DNA of 46,095 nt, taken from NCBI GenBank assembly GCA_947601445.1, contig CANQGD010000013.1:1-46095 (forward strand), written 5' to 3'. Both the position numbers and the translations under genes were made by a program. Positions 3,562-12,590 of this stretch are shown piece after piece; the stretch's first letter is position 1; each line of letters starts with the position of its first letter. The notes beneath the pieces are model-generated. The model searched no databases. It saw only the letters and a program-made list of their open reading frames with translations, and was not told where the DNA came from. This stretch comes from an uncultured Clostridia bacterium (GTDB lineage: Bacteria; Bacillota; Clostridia; Christensenellales; CAG-314).

Positions 3562-3783
3562 CTATTTTATTGTCGGATAAGGTTTTGTTTCGTCCGTCAA
3601 CCCCAAAATATAGTCAACGCTGGTGTTATAAATACGTGCCAACTTTATCAAAATAGCGGTTGGTACGTCATTTTCACCTGTTTCGTATTTGGAATAGCCC
3701 GTTTGAGACATTCCGAGTACTTTGGCAAGTTGGGTTTGATTTATGTCTTTATCTTCGCGTAAATCTCGTAATCTTTGATACAT
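3562..3783 (-). CDS. XRE-family (HTH_3) transcriptional regulator, SinR-like in context
   Basis: This small DNA-binding protein is almost only a Cro/cI-type helix-turn-helix. Of 73 residues, the HTH spans about 16-37 (QTQLAKVLGMSQTGYSKYET), followed by the usual GENDVPTAILIKLARIY and VDYILGLTD. A strong GGAGGG precedes the ATG. It is divergent from the TasA/SipW operon, and the shared region holds a perfect inverted repeat in the spacer of the operon promoter plus a second half-matching copy near its own promoter. I infer that it represses the surface-protein operon and itself. No ligand or oligomerisation domain is visible, so the signal is unknown. The fold is certain; the target is inferred from position. 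Confidence 0.9.
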   Translation of the reverse strand: MYQRLRDLREDKDINQTQLAKVLGMSQTGYSKYETGENDVPTAILIKLARIYNTSVDYILGLTDETKPYPTIK

Positions 3784-3804
3784 TTTGTTCCCTCCGCGAA
3801 AATA

Positions 3805-3834
3805 ATTATAATTTAACCTGTTTTAGACTATTGA
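3805..3834 (-). promoter_or_regulatory. weak promoter of the XRE gene
   Basis: On the minus strand a perfect TATAAT lies at 3805-3810, with a poor -35 (TCAATA, 3829-3834) 18 bases upstream. The imperfect operator 3815-3829 lies in the spacer, which suits autorepression. Confidence 0.45.
3815..3829. promoter_or_regulatory. imperfect operator copy (O2)
   Basis: AACCTGTTTTAGACT: the left arm is identical to the perfect operator at 3840-3854 and the right arm matches at three of six bases. The centre is 25 bp from that of the perfect site. It lies in the spacer of the minus-strand promoter. Confidence 0.5.
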
Positions 3835-3859
3835 TATTTAACCTGAAACAGGTTATAAT
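3831..3859 (+). promoter_or_regulatory. sigma-A promoter of the SipW/TasA operon
   Basis: TTGATA (3831-3836), a spacer of exactly 17 bases, and TATAAT (3854-3859). The spacer contains the inverted repeat, whose right end shares a base with the -10. The predicted start near 3866 gives a leader of about 150 bases before the first gene. Confidence 0.8.
3840..3854. promoter_or_regulatory. perfect operator (O1) for the divergent XRE protein
   Basis: AACCTG-AAA-CAGGTT is a perfect 6+3+6 inverted repeat, a typical size for an XRE dimer. It lies between the -35 and -10 of the forward promoter, so binding would exclude RNA polymerase. Which protein binds is inferred from adjacency. Confidence 0.7.
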
Positions 3860-4018
3860 GTCTTCGATTATAAAGATTGATTCGGGGCAAGAATATGGCG
3901 CAATATGTCTGACTTGGTCGAAGGTATAAACAATTATTGCCAAATTAGACGGTAAATAACGGCATACGCGGAAAAATCGCAACAGTTTTCGGCGTATACG
4001 CAAACGGGAGGCTGCACA

Positions 4019-4492
4019 GTGAAAAAGCTCACATACATTATCATTTCGATCAGCATGGTTTTGCTTATTGGGGGAGTTATTCTCACGGTGTTGATGCTGC
4101 TTGATAACGAGACGGTCAAAAACATCACATTGGATAAAGACGGACATGCCGATGAGGAGCTTACTTTTTATGCGAGAGAGATAAAGCCCGGCGAAAGCAG
4201 AGGCTATACCGTTGTTTTGCACGGCGGTAACGGCGAGTTGCTCGACGTCACATTGGTCTTTGACGATGCAAAGGGAATCTTGGCGGAGTATCTCGAAGTG
4301 GATATATCCTGTCACGAGTACAGCAAGCATGCCAAATTGACTGAGATTTTGGGAGAAGAAAATACTTTCACATGCAAATTCGATGATGAATATCGTATAG
4401 AAATTGTATATACATTACCCATAGCCGCGGATAACAAAGTAATGGGTACAGAAGCAAACTTTGTTTTAAGCTTGCAGACCAACAGGAATTAG
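4019..4492 (+). CDS. membrane-anchored TasA-like beta-sandwich protein
   Basis: This 157-residue protein has one N-terminal membrane segment (about residues 5-27) and an extracytoplasmic domain rich in alternating hydrophobic residues. Features such as YAREIKPGESRGYTVVL and a C-terminal GTEANFVLSL resemble the beta-sandwich of TasA/camelysin proteins. It lacks the GxTFALF motif of SipW substrates, so it may stay membrane-anchored. The start is GTG after GGGAGG. It is the first gene of the operon controlled by the 3831-3859 promoter and lies directly before the signal peptidase gene. By position it could act like TapA, an assembly anchor; that is inference. The stop codons TAG TGA are in tandem. 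Confidence 0.7.
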   Translation: MKKLTYIIISISMVLLIGGVILTVLMLLDNETVKNITLDKDGHADEELTFYAREIKPGESRGYTVVLHGGNGELLDVTLVFDDAKGILAEYLEVDISCHEYSKHAKLTEILGEENTFTCKFDDEYRIEIVYTLPIAADNKVMGTEANFVLSLQTNRN

Positions 4493-4527
4493 TGATGTTA
4501 TAAATAAGCCCAAAAGCAAAAAATGTA

Positions 4528-5229
4528 TTGAAAATAATTGCAAACGTATTACTGTATTTGTTCATGGCGGTATGTTTGGTGATGTTGGTTATGTCGTTTT
4601 TTGCAAGAAGAAGCGACGGTGCCGTAACGTTGTTCGGTAATCTTCAATTGCGCATTGTACTGTCGCCCTCCATGGCAAAGAGTGATCAAACGGACGTTTC
4701 TCAATACGAGATAAAATCTATCCCCGCAAAGAGCATGGTATTCGTAAAAACCGTTCCCGAGGATGAAACAGAAGCGTAGGAATTTTACGATTCTCTGCAA
4801 GTGGGTGATGTGCTTACTTTCAAGTACGTGTATTCTCAGCAGGAAACAATAACCCACAGGCTTATTGACAAAGTTCCCAACGGGCAAGGCGGGTACATTC
4901 TTTATCTGAAAGGAGACAACGGAAAGGATGGGGACAAACAGATAATCGATACCGACGATGAGATTGGCTTAAATCGTGTTGTAGGCAAGGTCACCGGCAA
5001 AAGCATTGTGTTGGGCTATCTGATTTATACCGTACAGCAACCCGTGGGCATGGCGTTGTTGGTGATTGTGCCCTGCGCGATCATAGCGATAGGCGAAGCG
5101 ATCCGCATCGGCAATTTGGTCGCCGCTCGCAAGAGAGAACGTGCCGAAGAGGAAAACCGTCGTCTTGCGGAGGAATCCGCCGCCAAAGAAAGCGAGATAG
5201 AGGAGCTTAACGACGCTTATCTGAATTGA
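4528..5229 (+). pseudogene. sipW: SipW-type signal peptidase I, interrupted by an in-frame TAG
   Basis: ER/SipW-type signal peptidases cut the signal peptides of TasA-like proteins. One frame runs from a TTG at 4528 to a TGA at 5229 (233 codons) except for TAG at 4777-4779 (codon 84). The first half has a membrane helix (about 3-26) and the nucleophile Ser48 in LSPSM. The second half has VGDVLTF, the catalytic His110 in TITHRLID, Asp130 in KGDN, a second hydrophobic helix (about 175-200) and a charged tail. Ser and His therefore fall on different sides of the stop. The second half has no Shine-Dalgarno at its first start-like codon (GTG 4801). The start is also odd: AGGAA is correctly spaced before ATG 4495, but the third codon in that frame is TAA (4501). 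It may be a recent pseudogene, a readthrough gene or a sequence error. Confidence 0.75.
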
Positions 5230-5284
5230 CAAACAATTCGGCAGAACAATCCGAAGAAAATAGCAATGGGAGGATTCAACAACC

Positions 5285-5899
5285 ATGATAACAGCAATAA
5301 TCATCTTTATGGTTTTGGTTGCAGTCATGTGCATATTCGGCGTGACTGTGATCATTATAGACTTAAAGCGGTCAAAGAACAACCCCAACGATACCGTCGC
5401 CACATAGCCGCAGGAGCCAATATCGGCAGAACCCGCAGTCGAAACGGCAGAGGATTCGGTTGTTTTCAAGAGAAAAATGCTTACCCATTCGGAAAAATAC
5501 GCAGATTTGGATAGAGAAAGCAAATCTCGTTACAACGAGGTGGTAGCGTATGTTTGCGCAATCGACGGCGTCAAACGCAAGCAAAACGACAAGTGCGAGG
5601 AATTTCGTTATTGCAGCAAACGTGTGGTGTGCATGACGATAAAAAAGGGAGTTGTCTGCTGTGAATACAGCTTGGTCAACGACCAATTCGATAAGTATAT
5701 TTCGGATAACAAGCTGTCGGTAAAGCAAGCGGCAACGATTATCAAATTGCTCTCGGCAAAGGAGACGGAAGCGGCGAAAAACGCCGTGGACATTTCAGTG
5801 GAAACAATCCGTCGTTATCGAGAGGAAAAACATCAACGCGATCTTGCTCGCCGCCGTGAAGCCCGCAAGAGGGCAAACAGCGACGTGTCGGATAACTAA
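5285..5899 (+). pseudogene. membrane protein of unknown function, interrupted by an in-frame TAG
   Basis: I do not recognise the family. A good GGGAGG precedes ATG 5285. The first 40 codons encode one membrane helix (MITAIIIFMVLVAVMCIFGV) and a short charged stretch, then TAG at 5405-5407. The same frame stays open for 163 more codons: a Pro/Glu-rich linker (PQEPISAEPAVETAED), then a domain with several Cys residues (CRY-like spacing around EEFRYCSKRVVC and GVVCCEY), a helical part and a very basic Arg/Lys C-terminus. The second part could restart at ATG 5477, but no Shine-Dalgarno lies there. The layout (N-terminal anchor, acidic linker, basic cytoplasmic domain) reads as one protein of 204 codons. 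It lies between sipW and tasA, so a role in fibre assembly is only a guess. Confidence 0.65.
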
Positions 5900-5918
5900 A
5901 CTAAAAAAGGAGGTAAAT

Positions 5919-6548
5919 ATGTCTAAGCGGTCAAGAATAATTTTGTTGTCCTGCATAACGGTACTTTGCTGCGTCGCGCTGATCGTGGGCGGAACTTTTG
6001 CTTTGTTCACCTACAAAAGAGAAGTCACCAACCATCTGCAAGCCGGCGAATTGAAAGCGATACTTACCAGAACAAAATTGCAAGCAACCACATTGGGCGA
6101 TGACGGTCAATTGAAAACCGCCACGAACGCCGAACCAAAGGACTTCACTCAGCAGAACACAGATAACATTTTCGGCTTGAAGACTCAGGAGACGGTGGCG
6201 CCGGGATGTTCGTTTACTGCAACTTTGACGCTGCAAAACCAAGGTACGGTAGCATTTGTATATTGGGTGGAAGTATCCGGTATCACGGGCGACAAGGAAT
6301 TGCAGGATCAATTGCAGTTTACCGTATCTGTCACAGACGGTGACTCCAAGTCCGAGTTGTTGAGCAGTGATCAGATCGGCACGGTTATGGGTAATGCAAC
6401 CGCCCCCATTGGCACGATTTTGAGGGGTGCAAGCGCCGAGTTCACGGTGACCCTGACATTTGTTGACACGTCAGCGAATAACACTGCGCAAGCAAAAACG
6501 GCGTCATTCGATCTCATCGTGCATGCACAGCAAGTAACTGCGGCATAG
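5919..6548 (+). CDS. TasA-like surface fibre protein with SipW-cognate signal
   Basis: TasA-family proteins are exported beta-sandwich subunits that form biofilm fibres after SipW cleavage. The 209 residues start with a hydrophobic segment ending VGGTFALFTYK, the SipW-cognate signal motif. Then come features of the TasA fold: VAPGCSFTATLTLQNQGTVA (the charge-poor strand that follows a proline-glycine turn), FVYWVEVSG, and a C-terminal strand ASFDLIVHAQ. The frame is open further upstream (to 5844), but AAAAAGGAGG at 5905-5913 fixes ATG 5919. It follows the interrupted membrane protein by 19 bases. If the peptidase is truly dead, its maturation would need another enzyme. No sortase or covalent anchor motif is seen. 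The stop is TAG. Confidence 0.85.
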   Translation: MSKRSRIILLSCITVLCCVALIVGGTFALFTYKREVTNHLQAGELKAILTRTKLQATTLGDDGQLKTATNAEPKDFTQQNTDNIFGLKTQETVAPGCSFTATLTLQNQGTVAFVYWVEVSGITGDKELQDQLQFTVSVTDGDSKSELLSSDQIGTVMGNATAPIGTILRGASAEFTVTLTFVDTSANNTAQAKTASFDLIVHAQQVTAA

Positions 6549-6589: not shown

Positions 6590-9500
6590 ATGAAGAAAAC
6601 AAGCAAAATACTTTTGACGTCCATCTTGACGATAGTGGCTTGCATCAGCCTCATTGCAGGAGCAACCTTTGCTCTGTTCACCAGTGAGAGCAAAACCAAC
6701 ATTGCCATTACCGCAGCCAAGGTGAACGTAAAAGCAAGTATCGATGAGAGTAGTTTAGGCTATTCTTATGACGAAATCGAATTGGAAGGCGCAAATGAAA
6801 ACATCGACTATCAAGTAGTTGACGGCAACCTGCAAATCAGCAAAATGGCTCCCGGCGACACGGTCAAGTTCGATGTAGATTTGGACAACACCAGCGACAT
6901 CGCAATCAAGTGGCAGCTTTCCGTATCGGCGGTTGACGAAACGCAAGCGGGTTTCTTCCAACTGCTCAATGTGGAAACAACCGGTTATTCAATGATTTCC
7001 ACTTCCAAAGCCAGTCTGACAGAGTGGCAGCTTGTTACTGAGCCCGGAGGAGAAATCGCTCCGCTGCACGTTTCCGTTACAATGCCTTCGGCTGTCACAA
7101 GCGCTCAGGTAGCAGCTTACTCACCCGACCAGACATTGGAAGTCAGAGTGACGGCGATCCAGGGCAATGCCAAAACAACCAATCCGCAACCCGACGTAAT
7201 CAACCTTCACGAGTCTTTTGACGTAACGGAGCTTGAAACCATGCTTGAATCGGCTACGGAACCGCAAAAAATCAACCTGCTCAACGACATAGAGCTTGAT
7301 GAAAGCGTCTCTTGGGAAGCTTTGGAGCTTATGGCAGGTTCCGAATTCAAAGGCAACGGACACACGATCTCCTTCAAAGAGGGCGATCCCACTCAATTGG
7401 TTGCGACAGCAGAAAGCACAACTATCAGCGACGTTACGCTTCGCCTTTCGACAGACTTCGGCAAGCGTTGCACTTGGGACGAAGCCGGAGAAACCGAAGT
7501 TGCTTGGCAGGCAAACAATGCAAACGGTTTGCAAATATTTGCTAATGAAGTAAACGGCGGCACGGCACACGCTGTTCCCACCCTGCACGCTCCCCGTGTA
7601 CGCAGAGCGGCTACCGTCATCGCACATACCTCTTCCACCTTCGAAGGAGAACTCGTTGAGCTTACGCAAAACATCGATCTTTCCGGACAGGAATGGACGC
7701 CCATAGGTGAAAAGGGTTCGGATGCTACCAAGTTGTTCAAGGGTACATTCGACGGTAAAGGCTATACGATCGCCAACCTTACATACACCACGGATCAAAG
7801 CGGTGCCGGACTGTTCAACGCCACGGGCGCTAAATTCCAAAACATCAAGTTGAACAACATCACCATTTCCGGTACAGAATATGTCGGCGCATTGGTCGGT
7901 TACGGTTACACCAGTAACTACGAAAACGTCACTGCTACCAACATCACGTTGAACGGCAATCACTTTGTAGGCGGTATCGCAGGCGGCAGCTATTCGGATT
8001 TTGTCAATTGCCATGTTGAACATCTTGTAATTACTTGTACGCCCGACGGTGAACCCGACCATTACGACAACGGTGACAAAGTCGGCGGTCTCATCGGCAT
8101 ACAGGAAAATGGCAATTTCACAATGGAAAATTGTTCCGTTACAGACGCAACTCTCACCGCGTTCCGTGATGTCGGCGGCTTTGTGGGTTATTCCAACACC
8201 GGTCATGTGACCGCTTCCAAGGTGGAAGACGTCCACATCATCATCGACAGAACAAAGGACTACAAAGATTCGGATACCGGTTTGGACAAACCCTTCAATG
8301 CCGATAGCTACATCGGTAGACCGAACGGAGATTGCAGCATAGACGAAACAAGTCGGAATGCGGTCAAGAACTTCACGGTAGAGTACAAAAATTGCCCGGG
8401 ATTCATTATGGATACCGACAACAACGGCTATGTGTTCAACAAAGAAGGTCTGGAAACATTCCGCGACAAAGTCAATAGCGGTTCAAGTTTCTCCGGCAAG
8501 AATATTTATTTGATGACGAATATCGACCTTGAAGGCGATGAATGGAAGCCGATAGGATATTATGGTAGTTCTGTTATGAATGTTCGAAACACATTTAGCG
8601 GCAATTTTGACGGAAACGGTTACACAATCAGCAATTTTACTATTACCGATACTCCCCAAACGAGCAGCAACTACTTTACGGCTGTAAACTATTATTACGG
8701 CGGACTTTTTGGTAGAATCAGCAACAGCACTGTTCAGAATGTCAATGTAGAAAATGTTACCGTCAATGGCTATATGTATCTTGGCGGCGTAGTGGATGAA
8801 GCGTATAATTCGACTATAAAGAATTGCGACGTTAACAACGTAACAATCAATGTTAATAGAAAAGTTGACGGAACTAATGGTTACAAGGGCAGTGGTTATG
8901 GCTATACCAATTTGTCCGATATTCACGCAGGTGCGATTGCGGGTTATACATATACATCTGATTCTGTTCGGGATTGCAGTGCCAATGCGACAATCAATAT
9001 TACAACTAAAACAGGTGAGTTGAAAAACGTTCAATGTGATGCAAACGACAAGATCATCGGTTTTGAAGTTGGTAGCGTTGAAGATTACATTGCAGCGGCG
9101 GGAATGATCAATGCGGAAGAATTCGATCTTGGCGCACTGAAAGCTAAAAGAGCAACTCCGATCACGGTGAACTTTGACGAAGGTGACTACGATTTCTTGA
9201 ACAAGGAATATGAACCCTGGAACATCAGGGGCTATATCTTTGACGGCAACGGCGCAGTCATCAAGAACCTTAGTAAGCGCAACAGCAACGGCTATGCAGG
9301 CTTCTTTGGCAGCATAGAGGATTGCGAAGTCAAGAATTTCGTGTTTGAAAATGCTAATCTCAGCGGCTGCGACGTAGGTGTTGTGGCAGGCAAGGCAATC
9401 AATTCCGATCTCGACAATATTACCGTCAGAGGCAATGTCAACCTTACCTGGCTTGCAAAACAGGGTATGAATTATAGCACAGAAAGCGGCATTGGAATTT

Positions 9501-10534
9501 TGACAGGCTACTGGAAAAACACAAACACAGATTTCAAATTTGCAGGCACGCTCGAATGTACGGCAAATATATCGTTCGGCAAGATCGCAAATGCAATTCC
9601 CGGTTCCATGGGTAGTGAGGGAGCAATGTGGTCAACCGACGAAGATACATACTATTTCGGTACTCAATACAATAGATTTACGTATGTGCCCGACGGAACG
9701 AATATAGTAGTGGGTCAAGGATATAGTCTGAACACTACGGGCGATCCTGAACAAGTATCCGGTCTGAATATCGGCGACAAGATTACACTGGGCAGCTATC
9801 CGCAAACCAAGGTTACCGAGGAGGAAATTTTGACTCAACTCGAAGAATACGAACAAGAGTCTGAGTGGACTCTTGATGAAGAAGCCGCTATGAAGTACAC
9901 AGACGTAACGCTTGCAAGCGGCGAAAAATACCGTGGTGTGTTCCTTACAAGTGAAAAAGAAATAAGCAACGGCTATGAAGCCGAAACATACTACTGGTTC
10001 CACTATGAGCCTATAACCTGGCGTGTTGTTGCTGTACCCCAAAGCAGGTTTTACGGTCAGATGTATACTTTATTTGCGGATTGCGTCCTCGACAGCCGTG
10101 TACGCTTTACTGTGGAAGAAGTAAGACCGGAAACAGGCGAGGAACTGTTAGTGTGGTTAAGCGACACGTTCTATAACACTGCATTTGATGCGAGCCAAAA
10201 AACGCTCCTCGATACATATGATTCCGTCAAAGGCAGTCCATTAAATGTTACTCTGTTGAAAGAGGCAGATTGGAAAACATTCCAAACAGAAGTGGGTTGG
10301 ACAGTTGAAAACAGACTCTCGGGCAGCGACTATGCGTTCTGCCAAGGACTTTGGAACAGCAACGGAGCACCCGCTTGGTGGCTGCGTTATGATGCCCAAC
10401 AATATAGTGCTGCTGTTCGCGGTACATCGTTGGATCCCATTGTGACACCACACAGTGCGTATGTAAACCAAAGCTACGGCGTTGTGCCCGTAATTTACAT
10501 GGATTATACCATAGATGCCTTAACACTTGACTAA
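6590..10534 (+). CDS. giant surface protein: SipW-cognate signal, TasA-like domain, GLUG-like beta-helix repeats, DUF6273-like C-terminus
   Basis: The protein has 1314 residues. Residues 1-25 are a signal ending AGATFALFTSE, the SipW-cognate type. About 30-205 resemble a TasA-like sandwich (MAPGDTVKFDVDLDNTSD). About 205-1050 hold repeated beta-helix-like segments with GLUG-type motifs: FKGTFDGKGYTIANLTY near 395, VGGLIG and VGGFVGY near 505-545, FSGNFDGNGYTISNFTI near 670, and YIFDGNGAVIKNL near 880. About 1058-1310 match DUF6273 (LGSYPQTKV, EPITWRVVAV, WLSDTFYNTAF, AWWLRYD, GVVPVIYMD), common at the ends of Clostridial surface proteins. No LPXTG or transmembrane C-terminus is present. TAAGGAGG precedes the ATG. 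It is the last gene before a strong terminator. A role in adhesion or matrix is inferred. Confidence 0.85.
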   Translation: MKKTSKILLTSILTIVACISLIAGATFALFTSESKTNIAITAAKVNVKASIDESSLGYSYDEIELEGANENIDYQVVDGNLQISKMAPGDTVKFDVDLDNTSDIAIKWQLSVSAVDETQAGFFQLLNVETTGYSMISTSKASLTEWQLVTEPGGEIAPLHVSVTMPSAVTSAQVAAYSPDQTLEVRVTAIQGNAKTTNPQPDVINLHESFDVTELETMLESATEPQKINLLNDIELDESVSWEALELMAGSEFKGNGHTISFKEGDPTQLVATAESTTISDVTLRLSTDFGKRCTWDEAGETEVAWQANNANGLQIFANEVNGGTAHAVPTLHAPRVRRAATVIAHTSSTFEGELVELTQNIDLSGQEWTPIGEKGSDATKLFKGTFDGKGYTIANLTYTTDQSGAGLFNATGAKFQNIKLNNITISGTEYVGALVGYGYTSNYENVTATNITLNGNHFVGGIAGGSYSDFVNCHVEHLVITCTPDGEPDHYDNGDKVGGLIGIQENGNFTMENCSVTDATLTAFRDVGGFVGYSNTGHVTASKVEDVHIIIDRTKDYKDSDTGLDKPFNADSYIGRPNGDCSIDETSRNAVKNFTVEYKNCPGFIMDTDNNGYVFNKEGLETFRDKVNSGSSFSGKNIYLMTNIDLEGDEWKPIGYYGSSVMNVRNTFSGNFDGNGYTISNFTITDTPQTSSNYFTAVNYYYGGLFGRISNSTVQNVNVENVTVNGYMYLGGVVDEAYNSTIKNCDVNNVTINVNRKVDGTNGYKGSGYGYTNLSDIHAGAIAGYTYTSDSVRDCSANATINITTKTGELKNVQCDANDKIIGFEVGSVEDYIAAAGMINAEEFDLGALKAKRATPITVNFDEGDYDFLNKEYEPWNIRGYIFDGNGAVIKNLSKRNSNGYAGFFGSIEDCEVKNFVFENANLSGCDVGVVAGKAINSDLDNITVRGNVNLTWLAKQGMNYSTESGIGILTGYWKNTNTDFKFAGTLECTANISFGKIANAIPGSMGSEGAMWSTDEDTYYFGTQYNRFTYVPDGTNIVVGQGYSLNTTGDPEQVSGLNIGDKITLGSYPQTKVTEEEILTQLEEYEQESEWTLDEEAAMKYTDVTLASGEKYRGVFLTSEKEISNGYEAETYYWFHYEPITWRVVAVPQSRFYGQMYTLFADCVLDSRVRFTVEEVRPETGEELLVWLSDTFYNTAFDASQKTLLDTYDSVKGSPLNVTLLKEADWKTFQTEVGWTVENRLSGSDYAFCQGLWNSNGAPAWWLRYDAQQYSAAVRGTSLDPIVTPHSAYVNQSYGVVPVIYMDYTIDALTLD

Positions 10535-10959: not shown

Positions 10960-11469
10960 ATGAAAACTAAACGATACATTGCCAATCCACTTACGCTAAC
11001 CCTTTTTGCGGCTGTTGTTTGTATAAGCATTGCGGGTTTGGTGATATTTTGGACGTTTTCGTTTAGCCGCCCGGTGGAAAATTTGATCGTGTTGATATTT
11101 TCTTCCGCGCTTTTGATTTGTTTGCCCGTTTCTTTGTTTATTGTCGGCTTGACGGTGGGCGCGTTCGACACGGTTACCGTTCGTGAGGAAGATGTTATCG
11201 TACGTCGCTTCGGAAAGAAAATAAAGAGGTATTTGCTCAGCCAAAATACGCAACTCTATGTGCAAAAGAGCAACAAGGGCGTATCGCAGTATATAGAAAT
11301 TCGCTTTCCGGAATATTTCGAATCGGAAGTGCAGATAACCAAAGGTTTCCGTATGAGGGAGGGATATGTTTGTATTAATTACAGCCGCGCGCGATTGAAA
11401 CATGTGCGCAAAGTGCTGCAAAACTACAAAAACAACATAAATCCAATTCCGTGGTCTCAAAATTGGTAA
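10960..11469 (+). CDS. small two-helix membrane protein of unknown function
   Basis: I do not recognise the family by name. The 169 residues have two membrane helices near the N-terminus (about 12-33 and 41-65), then a soluble, probably cytoplasmic domain of about 100 residues with alternating beta strands (VTVREEDVIVRRFGKKIKRY), which resembles the bacterial PH-like domains that follow paired helices in many Gram-positive proteins. An upstream start at 10912 is possible in frame, but AAAGGA at 10947-10952 fixes ATG 10960. It stands alone under a perfect consensus promoter, so it is probably well expressed, and is closed by a bidirectional terminator. Confidence 0.7.
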   Translation: MKTKRYIANPLTLTLFAAVVCISIAGLVIFWTFSFSRPVENLIVLIFSSALLICLPVSLFIVGLTVGAFDTVTVREEDVIVRRFGKKIKRYLLSQNTQLYVQKSNKGVSQYIEIRFPEYFESEVQITKGFRMREGYVCINYSRARLKHVRKVLQNYKNNINPIPWSQNW

Positions 11470-11482
11470 CAACCGAAAAATC

Positions 11483-11512
11483 AAAATCTCACCGTTTTTG
11501 GTGAGATTTTTC
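11483..11512. terminator. bidirectional terminator
   Basis: AAAATCTCACC, loop, GGTGAGATTTTT. T-rich tails are present on both strands, so it can serve both the 10960 gene (+) and the bile salt hydrolase gene (-). Confidence 0.85.
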
Positions 11513-11612
11513 AATATAAATTTGTTTTTTTGAGAAAATATCTTTATTAGCCCCGCATATATGTCGAAATTTTAATATAAGTCATTTTTCATCGTCTCCG
11601 TTTGAAAAGCCG

Positions 11613-12590
11613 TCATACCGTTTTTTCCCAAACTATTTTTTGTTCGGTGCGCATCGGATAGCTTATCGGAGTGGTTCCTTCGAGATTTTCACGGTGCATA
11701 TCGACAGCCGTCAGACAACCATTATTGTAGGTGGTATAGTAGTAGATTCCTCTCGCGGCGTTGCAGCAAGAAGAGTAGATAGTGTATTCGTATCCGTGTT
11801 CCACGGCGCAGCTGCCTTTTTGTTGAGCAACTGAACCGAGCAGTTGAAAAAAGTGCCCGACGCAGCTTGTCTCGTCCTTTTCGCACACCGAATTGGCAAG
11901 AGCAAACGCCGCCCGCACAAAACGGCTTGCCGAACTCAGGTCTCCCGGCAAACCGAATCCACCTGCGCCGCGGCTGTACGGTTCTATGTGTAAATTGGGT
12001 GCAAATCGGTTGGACGCTATCTCGCGCGTTGCGCCCATATAGTGAGACAGATTCAACAGGTGAAAGTCAAAAGTCGGGCTGTTGGTCATTACGTTTGCGG
12101 GATTGTCGTATATTTTCAATCCGTCTGCGGTGCTTTCTACCACAATGGAAGCGTTTTTGTCGGCAATATGCCAATGCAACGGAGAGGCGGGCAGCCGTTC
12201 GTTGAAGTTTTCGTTGCACACGCTCACGTTTTGCAACAATTTACGCGCTTCGGCTACCGTTTTGCATTTACTCAACACAAAGGGTATCATTTCGAAGGAA
12301 GCGATATTGATTTTGTCCTCTTGCGGTGCAAAATAATGCGCAAATTTGGGAAAATTTAATCCCGCCATGCTCAAACCCATCTCATTGGTCGCGTCGTAAT
12401 AGAGTGGATAGTTGTCTTGCACAAATGCCATGCCGATCATCGCATAGTGATTGACCGTTTTTTCGGTATGGCGAAATTCTATCGGAAAATTTCTCGGCGT
12501 GATCGTTACCGACTCATTGTAGCTGAATTCATAATCGAGATTTCTGCCGAAGTAGTGATCTTTGGCAACAAAGGAAATAGAAGTGCACAT
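11613..12590 (-). CDS. bsh: bile salt hydrolase (choloylglycine hydrolase)
   Basis: This Ntn-hydrolase cleaves glycine or taurine from conjugated bile salts (EC 3.5.1.24). The 325 residues match the family. Met1 is followed by the nucleophile Cys2 (MCTSISF), and the other active-site residues are in place: Arg16 and Asp19 (GRNLDYEFSYNE), Asn79 (GLNFP), Asn170 (VMTNSPTFDF) and Arg223 (LSSASRFVRAAF). The substrate loop reads YSRGAGGFGLPGD; the S-R-x loop type has been linked to preference for taurine conjugates. The sequence resembles Lactobacillus/Enterococcus enzymes closely, so horizontal transfer among gut Firmicutes is possible. AGAGGT precedes the ATG. It is a single gene with its own promoter and no transporter beside it. 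It lacks a signal peptide, so it is cytoplasmic. Confidence 0.95.
   Translation of the reverse strand: MCTSISFVAKDHYFGRNLDYEFSYNESVTITPRNFPIEFRHTEKTVNHYAMIGMAFVQDNYPLYYDATNEMGLSMAGLNFPKFAHYFAPQEDKINIASFEMIPFVLSKCKTVAEARKLLQNVSVCNENFNERLPASPLHWHIADKNASIVVESTADGLKIYDNPANVMTNSPTFDFHLLNLSHYMGATREIASNRFAPNLHIEPYSRGAGGFGLPGDLSSASRFVRAAFALANSVCEKDETSCVGHFFQLLGSVAQQKGSCAVEHGYEYTIYSSCCNAARGIYYYTTYNNGCLTAVDMHRENLEGTTPISYPMRTEQKIVWEKTV

Follow-up and report, generated by a model that had tools for sequence, protein, structure and literature searches.

Between the end of a ribosomal protein operon and a set of SipW- and TasA-type genes in an uncultured Clostridia bacterium (order Christensenellales), a small XRE-family regulator is divided from its neighbors by two palindromes, raising the question of whether these parts form a repressor switch and whether such a switch was built for biofilm control. 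The locus lies in a 46,095-nt stretch of DNA (contig CANQGD010000013.1; hereafter the window), and an earlier, sequence-only reading of it (the original prediction) had proposed both. Our analysis indicates that the regulator and its pair of sites are very likely a self-contained, autoregulated repressor cassette that has been joined to various target operons in Clostridia.

The architecture of the locus (Table 1) largely matches that proposal. A 73-amino-acid (aa) helix-turn-helix (HTH) protein does stand opposite a SipW/TasA-type operon, as confirmed by its open reading frame (ORF), by an HTH_3 domain (57.5 bits against a Pfam cut-off of 23, E = 1.4e-15) and by matches of the target genes to the NCBIfam SipW model and PF12389. 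The palindrome AACCTG-AAA-CAGGTT (O1) is exact and occupies the 17-nt spacer of TTGATA/TATAAT, a promoter with 11 of 12 consensus matches in our promoter scan. An imperfect copy (O2) was found 25 bp away, beside a minus-strand −10, upholding the predicted second site; its assignment to the regulator's own promoter fared less well, as the −35 there is weak and no promoter on the minus strand reached the threshold of the scan. With repressor and target divergent, O1 inside the target promoter and O2 beside a putative −10, the arrangement resembles a phage switch, as had been suggested.

Is this arrangement more than a coincidence? Within the window alone it is not unusual: the 15-mer with up to 3 mismatches has 3 matches, a number reached in 16 of 100 shuffles. 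In the 1.6-Mb genome the gapped palindrome with at most 1 mismatch occurs once, and the reversed pattern gives 4 matches. Across 25 genomes of the genus, however, the operator–promoter arrangement (≤2 mismatches) was present in all five genomes with an orthologue of the XRE, one copy each, and in 0 of the 20 genomes without one. A scan of 84,980 genomes for TTGAYNNTTAAYCTRNNNYAGGTTAWRAT, which used no protein information, returned at least 119 genome-contig stretches and 1 viral contig, against a chance expectation of 0.04–1.4 matches at 45–65% A+T; judged by title, nearly all sources are Clostridia or their families, mostly metagenome-assembled genomes from animal guts. A divergent XRE homologue lies just upstream of 120 of 121 sites (E = 3e-7 to 4e-42, the weakest matches being truncated by the end of the locus), and the sole exception, L147, has only 88 upstream bases in its locus. 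O2, which was outside the scan pattern, stands exactly 25 bp upstream of O1 in 101 of 123 loci; it has at most 1 mismatch at that offset in 92 of 123, a number that no single-base shuffle attains. Conservation of AACCTG-N3-CAGGTT beside homologues of the regulator had been named beforehand as the test of the original prediction, and it is what these sites display. By these counts, the pairing of XRE and operator is not a matter of chance. As a separate observation, one locus (L130) carries two full operator–promoter copies, 165 bp apart, with one XRE alongside.

The association was also examined from the protein side, with a profile from 42 cassette XREs searched in 396 genomes of the order. 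Strong matches (≥115 bits) numbered 26, one per genome, and all others scored at most 107 bits. Operators occur in 19 genomes of the order, one copy each (0 for the reversed control), and 18 of these 19 fall among the 26 strong-XRE genomes. In the class, 5 of 391 genomes hold the XRE at E ≤ 1e-32; the three of these five that come from outside the order carry the operators.

The regulator itself resembles phage repressors more closely than SinR, which in Bacillus represses the SipW/TasA operon through a different operator and from an unlinked location. Orthologues in four other genomes of the genus are 79–92% identical to the window protein, and the recognition helix MSQTGYSKYETGEN is present in 114 of 116 parsed cassette XREs, with L127 and L134 deviating slightly. 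The predicted structure is a single HTH domain (mean predicted local distance difference test score 91.2) of five helices, from H3-11 to H56-59; on this model a ligand-sensing domain is absent, so that release of the repressor would have to come from outside. The top matches by sequence and fold are the DNA-binding domain of ImmR, from the integrative and conjugative element (ICE) ICEBs1, and phage repressors (7t8i, 9iaq, 3jxb, 1per), with the PezA antitoxin third by sequence among solved structures. SinR has the XRE-type HTH in common with it (3zkc and 1b0n match in fold, E = 0.014), but its sequence match is weak: in the PDB search 5tn0 (E = 0.86) and 3qq6 (E = 1.3) follow 34 and 41 other distinct sequences. 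SinR also has a C-terminal SinI-binding and multimerization region, for which a protein ending at residue 73 leaves no room. The claim that this is not the SinR system is thereby borne out.

Other known systems differ from the cassette in other ways. ImmR and the repressors of P22, 434 and arbitrium phages, nearest in sequence and fold, have the divergent switch layout, but the chains of 9iaq are 142 aa long and the cassette's target here is not a phage or ICE operon. CylR2 of Enterococcus faecalis, a 66-aa bare HTH regulator, is similar in fold (E = 0.010) but not in sequence (E = 0.081), and has a different target. The best NCBIfam model is RstR (NF041951; E = 2.4e-14, 53.5 bits, under its curated cut-off of 80). 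In a phage collection 41 records match the XRE; the 20 listed include bajarodino viruses from the gut in which one gene is annotated as repressor, and the five bajarodino virus repressors among the matches listed are 49–56% identical to it. Three bajarodino records inspected (L369–L371) are circular Inoviridae, and in bajarodino virus 42 and a Paenibacillus plasmid (L372) two related sites stand on either side of a TATTGAC, at a spacing of 25 bp by eye. Unlike the cassette, the RstR-type repressors of these filamentous phages have phage genes as their target, with another helix and operator. A blastn search of the 50-base double site against phages gave no match, and a stricter double-site pattern recovered only the same viral contig. 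The repressor Pf4r of the Pseudomonas filamentous phage Pf4 is suggested by its authors to regulate biofilm-linked host genes too (PMC8402870); unlike the cassette it is prophage-encoded, acts on scattered host genes and is described as homologous to repressor C of phage P2 (PMC8402870). Clostridium perfringens likewise has a SipW-dependent matrix operon, sipW-bsaABCRSD, but its expression requires the two-component system BsaR/BsaS, and neither "repressor" nor "SinR" occurs in the main text, nor does the regulator name TseR (PMC7395162). The operator strings AACCTGAAACAGGTT, AACCTGTTTCAGGTT, AACCTGTTTTAGGTT and CCTGAAACAGGTTA did not occur in the literature searched, and among the papers listed by searches on XREs with SipW, CylR2, RstR, covariation and domesticated repressors we recognized none as describing this cassette.

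We turned to what the cassette faces. Among its five same-genus occurrences, it adjoins a sipW operon in the window's genome and, as far as the contig runs, in G009, where only the start of gene 1 is visible before the contig end. The orthologous cassette of G005 faces a 336-aa putative membrane protein, and those of G002 and G018 face lipoprotein-like proteins. At 115 usable loci the first target genes form 69 homology groups, the largest with 23 members; target types include lipoproteins, leucine-rich repeat (LRR)/BspA proteins, zinc-ribbon membrane proteins, SLOG and ABC proteins. Pfam families were assigned to 107 of 117 first genes, with LRR_5 (10), zinc ribbon (5), sortase, SLOG (YAcAr), ABC and dockerin (3 each) represented; SipW and camelysin were not among the 25 commonest of the 65 families for these 107 targets. 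A crude hydropathy rule, applied to the calls of a home-made gene caller and with no genome background, predicts an exported or membrane first gene at 86 of 119 loci. Because the proteins are too short for an XRE tree of target function, we compared XREs pairwise: homologous targets were found in 11 of 240 pairs at 85–90% identity and in 7 of 40 at 90–95%, and among 42 loci whose nearest XRE is at least 90% identical, the target is homologous in 18 but not in the other 24. On this comparison close XRE relatives partly retain their target. Some targets recur: a small CxxC protein (~SCxYxRQHYxxDxRxIFRVxCGHC) is found in L054, L096, L115, L167, G263 (L209) and also on the one viral contig of the scan, and a start resembling it stands under another helix class in L280. 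A SLOG/YAcAr-type target accompanies the main cassette in L051, L103 and L154, whereas in G048 (L046) it stands, by eye, with another XRE that has its own upstream repeat.

The sipW operons, in turn, have other partners. G005 and G013 carry the same five-gene sipW operon beside a different divergent XRE (122–123 aa), with repeated ACTTTACAAAACGTAAAGT-type sites at the promoter, and in G004 a sipW operon has as its neighbor a third XRE, accompanied by GCAACAAAATGTTGC sites; none of these XREs is orthologous to that of the window. For the operons of G011, G023 and contig C30 of the window's genome, no XRE was found within 1.5 kb upstream of sipW. Given these differing XRE–operator pairs, the gene order implies that repressors and operons have changed partners repeatedly. 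The C30 operon is a second sipW/tasA operon (L182, 6491–10960), open to the contig end and with GCAACAAAATGTTGC-type sites; its sipW copy has no stop inside the SipW match. The GCAACAAAATGTTGC 15-mer (≤1 mismatch) has just two matches in the window's genome, both exact: C30:11285, upstream of this operon, and C30:2497, next to a protein related to the G004 XRE at 63% identity. It is less exclusive in other genomes of the genus, with a match in 20 of 25.

These neighborhoods bear directly on the idea of a dedicated biofilm or fibre switch, in which the XRE would have evolved for SipW–TasA matrix genes as SinR did in Bacillus. Such an origin would account for the operon faced in the window and G009, and for the divergent XREs that also adjoin the sipW operons of G005, G013 and G004; yet the orthologous cassettes of three genomes of the genus face other genes, the targets are highly diverse with SipW and camelysin outside the leading families, and sipW is found beside a different XRE in G005 or without one nearby. 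We consider this origin unlikely, and a biofilm role as the general role is largely refuted; the claim that the circuit arose to control biofilm or fibres was not sustained. Because the cassette faces many unrelated targets, sipW stands beside other XREs and, in the window, sipW and gene 3 carry in-frame stops, we take the switch to be a general one, with the link to biofilm as a single case.

If the palindrome is read by the XRE, a change of recognition helix should be mirrored in the DNA. Where XREs of the order differ in recognition helix, other palindromes do occupy the same place: SQR[IV]YSNYERG is paired with TTAGCGAW-N3-WTCGCTAA, SQQVYSNYELG with TTACYGCA-N3-TGCRGTAA (form TTACCGCAAATTGCAGTAA), RQNTYSQYETG with ATCTCA-N3-TGNGAT and HQTTYSDYELG with TTAAGGGATNATCCCTTAA. 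Seven other helix classes comprise 34 loci, and 25 of these show the 25-bp O1–O2 spacing; spacing in the SQTMYAR class was left unscored, the consensus used fitting poorly (≥5 mismatches). Across 83 sister loci, same-helix pairs (214) share a mean of 6.87 8-mers, compared to 1.49 in 2000 shuffles (maximum 2.24), and at 40–50% identity outside the helix the values are 5.47 (38 pairs) versus 1.09 (1669 pairs). Seven further phage and plasmid stretches included two with a predefined helix class, a Subdoligranulum plasmid (SQQVYSNYELG) and a fecal phage scaffold (SQTMYARYERG), both with that class's operator. Conserved pairing, fixed 25-bp geometry, change of target and helix–operator covariation are all evident in these sequence comparisons. 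We do not claim a strict separation of specificities within genomes: 1 of 49 same-genome pairs shares a helix (≥8 of 9 residues) versus 4.45 expected, a value at or below which 0.047 of shuffles fall, but without the main class this fraction is 0.23 and the effect is gone; the second XRE with an identical helix in L057 also counts against it.

The same observations bear on readings in which the repeat is no operator of the XRE at all. Were it a recombination or integration site of a mobile cassette, the changing neighbors would be explained, as would the position of the XRE–sipW block between rplQ and genes that lie near rplQ in 4 of 23 relatives; but O1 sits in exact −35/−10 register, has a second copy at 25 bp and varies in sequence with the helix, which makes this account highly improbable. 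Palindromes of global regulators often overlap promoters, and the repeat could on that ground belong to some other regulator that acts genome-wide and has the XRE, too, under its control. Against this stand its single genomic site, its restriction within the genus to genomes with the XRE orthologue and its covariation with the XRE helix, and we give such a regulator very little credence. A perfect inverted repeat might also act in RNA, as an attenuator or terminator hairpin; O1, however, lies upstream of the expected transcript start, and no terminator-like site was found within 3760–4030, leaving this reading scarcely credible.

We return to the repressor cassette and read it as an autoregulated plug-in switch of the phage-repressor kind, in which helix and operator vary together. 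An XRE dimer (itself presumed) would bind O1 within the −35/−10 spacer of the target promoter, and its occupancy there, to judge from position, would block RNA polymerase and shut the target operon. O2, 25 bp away in the regulator's own promoter, would presumably be bound with lower affinity and limit the level of XRE. We propose repression at O1 and weaker autorepression at O2 because of the position of the sites and the behavior of related repressors, such regulation being established for those of phages. Release would come from outside, through an antirepressor, proteolysis or dilution. The top fold match, 9iaq, is by title an entry on phages whose lysis–lysogeny switch works via a small antirepressor, which suggests that such an antirepressor is worth looking for here. 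Regulator and operator pair would act as one unit that has become joined, in different Clostridia, to different and mostly exported target operons, here one of SipW/TasA type. More broadly, and with a little less than even confidence, we envisage a large Clostridia class of bare-HTH cassettes, similar in build and related to lysogeny switches of filamentous phages and plasmids and serving as interchangeable controls of surface operons, in which the 25-bp chassis is kept while helix and operator change together to yield many specificities, and in which the sipW operons of this one genus have come under at least three different cassettes.

Several observations weigh against this picture. An operator-like match (1 mismatch) is present in G378 although the XRE is absent there, and 8 of the 26 strong-XRE genomes lack a pattern match; six of these have diverged sites by eye, and in G165 and G109 no site was seen by eye in the stretch inspected. 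O2 within 3 mismatches is absent in 20 of 123 loci, its pattern was composed after inspection of the same loci, and the best −35 of the regulator's promoter by eye, TCAATA with an 18-nt spacer, is poor. Five other helix groups (29 loci) do not fit the 25-bp spacing: one has about 31 bp in 4 of 7 loci, another 55 bp in 4 of 6, two have no fixed spacing (6 and 2 loci) and the fifth was unscored (8 loci). Inverted repeats that exceed the 95% null are present in only 40 of 82 sister upstream regions, and the phage scaffold L367 has a different repeat from L237 with a helix that differs at 1 of 9 residues. Exchange is also not rampant, with homologous targets in 5 of 7 XRE pairs at least 95% identical.

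The operon controlled here may no longer be intact. Its gene 1 has counterparts in G009 (start only), G005, G013 and the second operon of the window's genome. On read-through, sipW matches NF046067 at E = 1.9e-18 (66.7 bits, under the curated cut-off of 190), but its frame is interrupted by a TAG at 4777–4779, between the conserved SPSM and HR stretches, in a column that varies among homologues (K, R, R, S, E). Upstream of the listed TTG, an ATG at 4495 lies by eye near the expected start and is followed by an in-frame TAA at 4501–4503. Gene 3 also contains a TAG; its 214-aa counterpart in the second operon is stop-free. PF12389 (TasA/camelysin) matches the fourth gene with 27.1 bits against a Pfam cut-off of 22.5 (E = 4.5e-6). 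Use of TAG as a sense codon was considered and rejected: rpoA ends in TAG at 2499–2501 with rplQ next in the same frame, and because read-through would fuse these two core proteins, TAG is a true stop here. The window has no tRNA; a suppressor tRNA was not searched for in the rest of the genome. The window's SipW is probably dead, unless suppressed or misassembled, and the stops in sipW and gene 3, which the original prediction does not mention, may mean that the operon is decaying, that a rare suppressor reads through them or that the assembly is wrong. The window begins with what we take, from the sequences, to be the end of a ribosomal operon (rpsM, rpsK, rpsD, rpoA, rplQ). Because homologues of the genes at 10960–12590 lie at most 1.5 kb past rplQ in 4 of 23 relatives (G009, G019, G023, G024), the XRE–sipW block looks inserted relative to these four; in the remaining 19, rplQ is followed by other neighbors. 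The ORF at 11613–12590 (MCTSISF...), which adjoins the operon, may encode a bile-salt hydrolase or choloylglycine hydrolase.

Table 1. Features of the cassette and its target operon in the window.
Feature	Position	Strand	Basis
XRE/HTH_3 repressor, 73 aa, helix MSQTGYSKYETGENDVPT	3562–3783	minus	ORF list, Pfam, orthologues
Putative −10 TATAAT, regulator's own promoter	3805–3810 (read 3810–3805)	minus	by eye
O2, imperfect copy AACCTGTTTTAGACT, adjoins regulator's putative −10	3815–3829		25 bp start-to-start from O1
−35 TTGATA, target operon	3831–3836	plus	promoter scan
O1, perfect palindrome AACCTGAAACAGGTT, exact, inside −35/−10 spacer	3840–3854		pattern scan
−10 TATAAT, target operon	3854–3859	plus	promoter scan
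Gene 1, membrane protein, 157 aa	4019–4492	plus	ORF list
SipW-type signal peptidase gene, listed start TTG, probably broken	4528–5229	plus	NCBIfam
Gene 3, membrane-anchored protein, in-frame TAG 5405–5407	5285–5899	plus	sequence
TasA/camelysin-like secreted protein, SipW-type signal (GGTFALFT)	5919–6548	plus	PF12389
GLUG-repeat surface protein, 1314 aa, SipW-type N-terminus (AGATFALFT)	6590–10534	plus	ORF list, Pfam

Gut Firmicutes commonly carry small XRE regulators, and to our knowledge few of their sites have been described. For about ten helix classes the likely site can now be read from the sequence, which would make operators predictable for many genes, and the family offers natural, possibly non-crosstalking repressor–operator pairs. 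If the reading of interchangeable cassettes is true, these loci would amount to a natural table of recognition helix versus operator, and if the cassettes are shared with filamentous phages, they would show a virus-type switch turning into a control of host surface genes.

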